In this document: piece after piece, positions 10,161 through 10,966 of the stretch
Layout: each line of letters opens with the position of its first letter
Position numbering within the stretch: position 1 is the stretch's first letter
From: a bacterium HR29
GTDB taxonomy: Bacteria; Chloroflexota; Dehalococcoidia; Tepidiformales; Tepidiformaceae
Length of the DNA stretch: 64,000 nt
Reading direction: 5' to 3'
NCBI GenBank assembly: GCA_002898215.1
Contig: BEIF01000001.1
Span: forward strand, 1,463,602-1,527,601
The notes under the pieces: model-generated
The model's input: the letters and a program-made list of their open reading frames with translations, nothing else
Database searches by the model: none
What the model was told of the DNA's origin: nothing
Program-made: the position numbers and the translations under genes

Positions 10161-10205
10161 GGCATCGACTGCGCGTAAATTTGTGAAGAAATTCCTTATC
10201 GGGGG

Positions 10206-10235
10206 TTGACATGCCCCATCCGGGGCTGGTAGGGT
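10206..10235 (+). promoter_or_regulatory. Sigma-70-type promoter driving the c-di-AMP riboswitch
   Basis: A perfect TTGACA -35 box is followed, after 18 bases, by TAGGGT as the -10 box. Transcription would start around 10242, so the whole aptamer at 10281-10403 would be in the leader. Confidence 0.65.
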
Positions 10236-10280
10236 TCGCGCTGGCAGGCGGAAGCCTGCGCGCGCTCGGCAACGAGACAA

Positions 10281-10403
10281 CCGAATACTGCTGAATGCGC
10301 CCTCGGGCGCAGCGGGGGACCCACCGCGTGGGGTGAATTCGGCCAGGACGCCGATAGGGTGCCCTTCCACCCGAACCCGTCAGCTAACCCCGTAAGCAGT
10401 CGG
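10281..10403 (+). promoter_or_regulatory. c-di-AMP riboswitch (ydaO-yuaA aptamer)
   Basis: The leader contains the nearly invariant ydaO-yuaA blocks in the right order: AGCGGGGGACCCA, TGGGGTGAATT, ATAGGGT, and CGAACCCGTCAGCTAACC followed by CCGTAAGC. The closing P1 helix is formed by ACTGCT (10287-10292) and AGCAGT (10395-10400), extended by CCG/CGG. Variable stems (GCGCCC/GGGCGC and CGGC/GCCG) keep complementarity. This class binds cyclic di-AMP and usually switches transcription off. An intrinsic terminator begins three bases after the aptamer, which fits transcriptional control of the zinc-ribbon gene at 10493. Confidence 0.93.
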
Positions 10404-10405
10404 AA

Positions 10406-10444
10406 GGCCCTGCGAGCGGGTGGCTCGCCGCGAGGGCTTTTTTG
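10406..10444 (+). terminator. Riboswitch expression-platform terminator
   Basis: GCCCT plus GCGAGC pairs with GCTCGC plus AGGGC with a small bulge, followed directly by seven T residues. It lies between the c-di-AMP aptamer and the downstream gene, so it is probably the regulated terminator. Confidence 0.85.
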
Positions 10445-10492
10445 CTGTCCTCGATAACGCACCACATCGCGATGCGGAAGGAGGAACTCAGT

Positions 10493-10711
10493 ATGCCTGC
10501 ACTCCAGGAGGCGCCGCCGAAGCAGTGCCCGAAGTGCCGTGGCTCGATGATCATCGAGCGGGATTGGCACGGGACGTACGGTAGCTGCATCATGTGCGGC
10601 TACGTTCACGAAGTGCTGACGCGGCCCCCCATCGATATCGCGGCGGAGGAGGCGGCCCTGCCGCAGCGGCAGCGGCGCCGCCAGCCCTCCCACGGAAAGC
10701 TGCGCCTGTAA
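10493..10711 (+). CDS. Small zinc-ribbon protein under c-di-AMP riboswitch control
   Basis: The 72-residue protein has a CPKC motif at residues 12-15 and a CIMCG motif at about 33-37, with about 17 residues between the pairs, a compact treble-clef/zinc-ribbon. The segment between is beta-strand-like (SMIIERDWHGTYG). The last 20 residues are very basic (RQRRRQ), suggesting nucleic-acid or membrane-surface contact. A strong AAGGAGGA ribosome binding site sits 7 bases before the ATG. It is the only gene between the riboswitch terminator and its own terminator, so it is the sole target. Function unknown. Confidence 0.85.
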   Translation: MPALQEAPPKQCPKCRGSMIIERDWHGTYGSCIMCGYVHEVLTRPPIDIAAEEAALPQRQRRRQPSHGKLRL

Positions 10712-10740
10712 GCGGCCGCAGGCGCGTCCCTACGTTCAGC

Positions 10741-10774
10741 GGAGCCCGACCCTAGGGTCGGGCTCCGGCTTTTC
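10741..10774 (+). terminator. Terminator after the zinc-ribbon gene
   Basis: A 13-bp perfect palindromic stem (GGAGCCCGACCCT and its complement) is followed by GGCTTTT. It closes the monocistronic riboswitch unit about 30 bases after the stop codon. Confidence 0.85.
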
Positions 10775-10966
10775 CCGGCGTGGGGGATGTCCGGCGCGAA
10801 ATCATGGCGGAGCCGGAGGGTCGCCCCGGGATGATCCGGCGGTGGAATCAGGGTTTCCCAGGATTCGATCGCCTTCCCCCAGGGATAGACTCCCACTTGC
10901 TCGTTGCGAAACCCCGAGGCGCCGGGCTCGCCGGCCCCGACGGACCGAGGAGAGGAGTCGAATCGC

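Follow-up and report, generated by a model that had tools for sequence, protein, structure and literature searches.

What is a c-di-AMP riboswitch doing in front of a single gene for a 72-residue zinc-ribbon protein? c-di-AMP is known mainly for the tuning of potassium and osmolyte transport and for its part in cell-wall turnover. An initial annotation of a 64,000-nucleotide stretch of DNA from bacterium HR29 (hereafter the window) described a unit of this kind from the sequence alone, and proposed that its product is an undescribed effector of c-di-AMP signalling. The source genome, of 2.34 Mb, falls in the same family as Tepidiforma, a family that GTDB places in the class Dehalococcoidia. 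NCBI now uses Tepidiformia, and in all counts given below "Dehalococcoidia" denotes the GTDB class.

Riboswitches for c-di-AMP are reported to control transporters of ions, osmoprotectants, and amino acids in Firmicutes, and in Actinobacteria genes of the cell wall (PMC9960051, PMC7266159). The riboswitch class itself is known. That its one conserved target should be a small zinc-ribbon effector is not described in the open papers searched; an earlier mention in a supplementary table is possible. Literature searches pairing c-di-AMP with Dehalococcoidia or with zinc ribbons returned nothing.

The leader and its probable expression platform

Judged from its sequence, the leader of the zinc-ribbon gene is beyond reasonable doubt a c-di-AMP riboswitch, as the initial annotation had claimed. 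Family RF00379 (gathering score 38) matches it over the full model length at 89.3 bits, and compensatory, double-sided changes are seen at nine of the 18 consensus pairs across 27 homologous leaders. Binding of c-di-AMP by the window aptamer is predicted from this family membership. The locus resembles the ydaO/yuaA and kimA members of the class in its full-length covariance match, conserved core, and P1 helix, and shares a terminator output with the Bacillus subtilis prototype. It differs from the class in its target, which is a one-gene unit encoding a small zinc-ribbon protein. The features of the locus are collected in Table 1.

Table 1. Features of the zinc-ribbon locus in the window, with one further riboswitch of the source genome (last line).
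Feature	Position	Strand	Details
Degenerate palindromic CRP/FNR-like element	10174..10198	+	5' of the -35; relatives have TTTGTGA-N6-TCRCAA; window copy imperfect
Sigma-70-type promoter	10206..10235	+	-35 TTGACA 10206-10211, 18-nt spacer, -10-like TAGGGT 10230-10235; direct reading
c-di-AMP (ydaO/yuaA) riboswitch aptamer, RF00379	10279..10411	+	cmscan 89.3 bits, E 1.4e-19
Intrinsic terminator inside leader	10404..10443	+	hairpin about -25 kcal/mol, then TTTTTT; a simple terminator scan agrees
Shine-Dalgarno AAGGAGG	10479..10485	+	direct reading; strong Shine-Dalgarno kept among homologs
72-residue zinc-ribbon protein	10493..10711	+	ATG start at 10493; CPKC-x16-CIMC ribbon, acidic linker, C-terminal peptide RQRRRQPSHGKLRL
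Intrinsic terminator closing the unit	about 10739..10776	+	perfect 12-bp hairpin, -29 kcal/mol, then CTTTT
Riboswitch of locus L011	G000:C2 371437-371572	gene on minus strand	precedes 59-residue zinc-ribbon protein

The promoter had been called strong, a description that suits its -35 hexamer, which is nearly invariant among the homologous leaders, but not its -10 hexamer, which matches the consensus at only three of six positions and is weak. Directly 5' of the -35, the palindrome TTGTGA-N6-TCRCAA (up to two mismatches) occurs in 39 of 83 homologous promoters compared to 7 of 1462 control windows, distributed through the Tepidiforma family and sporadically in other lineages. This enrichment suggests that a regulator of the CRP/FNR type could provide a second input to the zinc-ribbon promoter.

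The terminator that the initial annotation had placed after the aptamer turned out to be one of two, the first lying within the leader and the second behind the gene. The leader terminator, with its U-run, supplies a gene-control output directly 3' of the window aptamer and is likely the expression platform. Folding of the nascent RNA predicts an antiterminator in the window, in which the 5' half of the terminator is taken up in pairs with two other elements, the core of the aptamer and the P1 3' strand; this structure would exclude both the aptamer and the terminator, and the prediction recurs only partly among relatives. Most relatives outside the Tepidiforma family possess no recognizable leader terminator or U-run, and thus the leaders of most of those lineages may act on translation. 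Other members of the riboswitch class are reported to be OFF switches, in which the ligand-bound form favors a terminator or blocks translation (PMC9960051). We infer the same polarity for the window leader. Ligand binding would abolish the antiterminator, such that high c-di-AMP would most likely give the terminator output and turn the zinc-ribbon gene off, while a low level, as under osmotic or potassium stress, would allow the gene to be transcribed.

A transcription unit of one gene

The terminator behind the zinc-ribbon gene is stronger than that of the leader, and a hairpin or terminator lies directly 3' of the gene in most of the homologs inspected. The initial annotation had named the zinc-ribbon protein as the only target of the riboswitch. 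This holds for the transcription unit in the window but not for the genome, which carries three other c-di-AMP riboswitches with targets of their own.

It is conceivable that the riboswitch instead serves genes further downstream, such as an ABM-like gene, a response regulator, or flagellar motor genes, and that the zinc ribbon is merely the incidental first gene. In 46 of 84 loci an ABM-domain gene does follow on the same strand, at a distance of 49-216 nt, and 36 of the 84 have a gene for a NarL-type response regulator. We nevertheless regard this explanation as improbable: the ABM gene usually lies past a hairpin or terminator, in the window, as in many homologs, such structures stand between the ribbon and the gene that follows it, the ABM gene has been lost from its position downstream of the ribbon in the window genome, and many loci, including those of low-GC marine lineages, keep the riboswitch and the ribbon with neither neighbor. 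Co-operon organization with the ABM-like gene was accordingly rejected for the window, where that gene is missing, and is weakened elsewhere by the intervening hairpins and terminators. A link to motility, considered on account of the response-regulator and flagellar neighbors, was rejected as a general explanation, as many loci keep the riboswitch and ribbon without them. The constant pair across loci is the riboswitch and the zinc ribbon.

The zinc-ribbon protein and its C-terminal peptide

The product is a protein of about 8 kDa with two conserved CxxC knuckles on beta-hairpins, the arrangement of a C4 zinc-ribbon fold, from which zinc binding is predicted. In an alignment of 48 members, C12, C15, C32, and C35 are invariant together with D24 and W25, and the C-terminal peptide RQRRRQPSHGKLRL is almost wholly so. 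The structure prediction is of modest confidence (mean pLDDT 75) and consists of three strands with a confident ribbon (about 81-91) and a flexible tail (58-70). The protein had been described as very basic, which does not hold for it as a whole: it is bipolar, with an acidic body (pI 5.5) and its positive charge held within the last 14 residues, which bring the pI of the complete protein to 9.2.

Across 83 sequences, nearly all residues encoded by the last 13 codons are fixed while synonymous codons vary widely, indicating that selection acts on the peptide; a constraint at the RNA level was rejected given this free codon use. The same observation bears on whether the ORF could be a regulatory leader or arrest peptide that acts at the level of RNA or translation rather than as a stable protein. 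The invariant residues do reach the stop codon, as they do in arrest peptides, but the codons of the tail vary freely, the N-terminal ribbon is equally conserved despite its distance from the stop codon, and, since a terminator follows, no gene is left behind the ORF to be regulated. We therefore consider an arrest peptide exceedingly unlikely.

No Pfam, NCBIfam, or PDB family matches the zinc-ribbon protein above its cut-off. For most family members the best weak profile matches are the TFIIB and RPB9 zinc ribbons, and in the window protein these score below the Pfam gathering cut-offs (PF08271, 22.6 bits against 29; PF02150, 18.1 bits against 25.2), so that the connection to the transcription machinery is one of resemblance only. 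Both share with the window protein a C4 ribbon with CPxC and CxxCG knuckles; in contrast, only the RQRRRQPSHGKLRL family has a DWxG loop and an invariant peptide at the C-terminus. A fold search of the PDB gave no match at E <= 0.001, and a search of the PDB with the tail peptide matched nothing. Among the best fold matches was ZifS of Thermus thermophilus (PDB 8yoz), likewise a small bacterial zinc-ribbon protein, at an E of only 0.08 and with 24% identity over 45 columns; our literature search found no paper on ZifS.

A database scan yielded 126 relatives, and among the best 80 of these every record title that names a taxon names Chloroflexota. Weaker ribbon relatives that lack the tail exist elsewhere in Chloroflexota (e.g., L251, L255, and L020), including in family f2 of the same class (genomes of 1.4-2.1 Mb), which has several tail-less copies ending in RRGRR. 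These proteins share the ribbon layout at roughly 30-51% ribbon identity but lack the RQRRRQPSHGKLRL tail, and none of the 19 tail-less ribbon loci examined carries a c-di-AMP riboswitch. A mobile origin for the family was rejected, as no homolog was found in phage or plasmid records and none was confirmed in viral contigs.

The initial annotation had suggested that the basic tail binds nucleic acids or a membrane surface. The first of these, a tail that contacts nucleic acid, is plausible, given that the nearest profiles, though below cut-off, are those of TFIIB and RPB9 and that the f2 relatives end in RRGRR. Binding to a membrane surface has nothing but charge in its favor.

Linkage of riboswitch and gene

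The homolog survey proposed by the initial annotation showed a tight association between riboswitch and gene. In 76 of the best 80 of the 126 relatives, a motif for the aptamer core was found 58-150 nt ahead of the matched gene start, and the covariance model confirmed the aptamer in 14 of 20 such loci, a sample that deliberately included suspected negatives. In whole genomes, 25 cases were found to be adjacent by coordinates and a further 56 of 60 sites by sequence; cmscan of 20 of these 60 sites confirmed 16, the remaining four being the four negatives. Of the 87 genomes checked outside family f16, 81 have the riboswitch directly upstream of the gene, with G270 and G298 taken as negatives and G541 standing outside the count. 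The tail-matching copies with no riboswitch before them are those of G340, G387, G270, G298, G551, and G534. Genomes of family f16 (G210, G353, and G365 among them) retain the gene, identical in its tail, but their sole riboswitch lies elsewhere in all genomes compared. At two loci, L092 and L015, a decaying aptamer with a partly readable core precedes an intact zinc-ribbon gene.

Twelve genomes outside f16 have the gene and a single detected riboswitch, and in all twelve that riboswitch lies directly before the gene; the genome scan for riboswitches used strict filters, and weak additional riboswitches may have escaped these single-riboswitch counts.

Distribution in Dehalococcoidia

The distribution of the gene was surveyed in 294 Dehalococcoidia genomes using a degenerate DNA pattern that covers a portion of the tail, with the reversed pattern as a control. 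The pattern was present in 105 genomes and never at more than one site per genome, while the control gave no matches; 105 is a lower bound, as the pattern overlooks some members (e.g., L229 and L240). By raw genome counts, uncorrected for phylogeny, a c-di-AMP riboswitch is found in 104 of the 105 gene-bearing genomes and a diadenylate cyclase in 101, compared to 23 and 25, respectively, of the 189 pattern-free genomes. In the four gene-bearing genomes for which no cyclase was detected, completeness is 72-88%. All 14 families that possess the gene also possess the riboswitch and the cyclase, and the gene is confined to cyclase-bearing lineages.

Such a pattern could also arise if the gene, riboswitch, and cyclase were inherited together from one ancestor with no functional tie between them. 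The gene-free genomes do fall mostly in whole families that also have no cyclase, and because of this clustering the 294 genomes are not independent. We consider common inheritance alone very unlikely, as the order of riboswitch then gene survives in most of the 14 families despite changing neighbors, genomes outside f16 reduced to a single detected riboswitch retain exactly the one before the zinc ribbon, and the aptamer is visibly decayed at L092 and L015, where the linkage has been lost. Physical linkage is stronger evidence than the co-occurrence counts.

Other riboswitch targets in the genome and the class

The source genome encodes one diadenylate cyclase with a DAC domain (G000:C1:764041, E 1.7e-42) and four c-di-AMP riboswitches. 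In addition to that of the window, these precede an MFS-type transporter, a set of two short ORFs and a lysine-2,3-aminomutase-like radical-SAM gene (L010), and another small zinc-ribbon protein, 59 residues long, MLRRGYESWWQRLVW...CPECAAPYEPTDRYCRRCHVRVPEWRF (L011). Relatives of this second ribbon are found behind riboswitches at seven other loci.

We also inspected the loci 3' of 110 c-di-AMP riboswitches of the class, from which most known members of the zinc-ribbon family had been deliberately omitted; two had no recognizable core, leaving 108. A small ORF with two CxxC pairs (up to 170 residues, with a Shine-Dalgarno sequence and a start within 450 nt) was found in 30 of the 108, seven of which belong to the RQRRRQPSHGKLRL family. 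Different small CxxC/CxxC proteins therefore stand behind 23 of the 101 other riboswitches, cases that are partly shared among related genomes and so not all independent. The same ORF test gave 9 of 1430 and 9 of 977 at random positions (about 0.7%) and 0 of 30 behind cobalamin riboswitches of the class. Groups among the 23 include proteins with the patterns WW...CPEC...YCPGCH..TPEWRYG, CPRCDQPLG..CDMWG, and EAMRL..EED...C..C...GSVEYD..RLCN.CA. Members of these other groups occur at L133, L135, L141, L142, L144, L147, L148, L149, L157, L167, L175, L191, L193, L207, L212, and L213. These further small proteins suggest that the class follows a general strategy and that the zinc ribbon is no isolated case.

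Larger targets include 12 lysine-2,3-aminomutase-like genes, which possibly serve synthesis of beta-lysine as an osmolyte, and eight trehalose-6-phosphate-synthase-type genes. Loci of the former radical-SAM type include L010, L140, L145, L159, and L173, and loci of the latter type (glycosyltransferase 20) include L138, L156, L166, and L187.

Discussion

As far as regulation and co-occurrence are concerned, there is good support for the proposal that the zinc-ribbon protein is a previously undescribed c-di-AMP effector: the covariance score lies far above threshold and the homologs carry the riboswitch, the two points on which the initial annotation had staked its reading. On balance, we favor a one-gene c-di-AMP OFF-switch unit whose product is a dedicated effector that contacts RNA polymerase, the ribosome, or nucleic acid. 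The zinc ribbon would form a rigid docking module, and the basic peptide, whose invariance and free C-terminal position imply a single conserved partner, would bind a single, highly conserved target, most likely RNA polymerase, the ribosome, or nucleic acid. A fall in c-di-AMP would in this way be converted into changed gene expression via the zinc-ribbon protein.

The main rival to an effector of this kind is a small adaptor whose C-terminal peptide would attach to a single conserved enzyme or transporter, such as one of potassium or osmolyte handling, and regulate it post-translationally with no contact to nucleic acid or the transcription machinery. The other riboswitch targets of the class (lysine-2,3-aminomutase-like genes, glycosyltransferases of the trehalose-6-phosphate-synthase type, and an MFS transporter) would suit such a role in osmolyte metabolism, the body of the protein is acidic, and protein-protein contacts just as typically involve a short, invariant peptide at the C-terminus. 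On the other hand, the nearest profiles are the zinc ribbons of a transcription factor and of RNA polymerase, and no partner gene consistently adjoins the zinc-ribbon gene. We regard an adaptor as possible but rather unlikely.

In conclusion, returning to the favored effector contacting RNA polymerase, the ribosome, or nucleic acid, the zinc-ribbon protein is probably a core and unstudied part of c-di-AMP signalling in the class. We further offer, tentatively, the broader possibility that c-di-AMP signalling in Dehalococcoidia (GTDB) runs largely through several families of small zinc-ribbon proteins under riboswitch control, of which the RQRRRQPSHGKLRL family would be the core and would serve as a global regulator, docking on RNA polymerase or on the ribosome once c-di-AMP drops. 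If true, this would be a second-messenger output of a kind undescribed for c-di-AMP. The system is small enough to be tested completely, consisting of one leader, one 8-kDa protein, and one 14-residue tail. As a single-copy gene with an invariant tail, tied to the riboswitch in most of 14 families and kept as the target of the last detected riboswitch, the zinc ribbon points to an apparently unexamined output of c-di-AMP in these bacteria.
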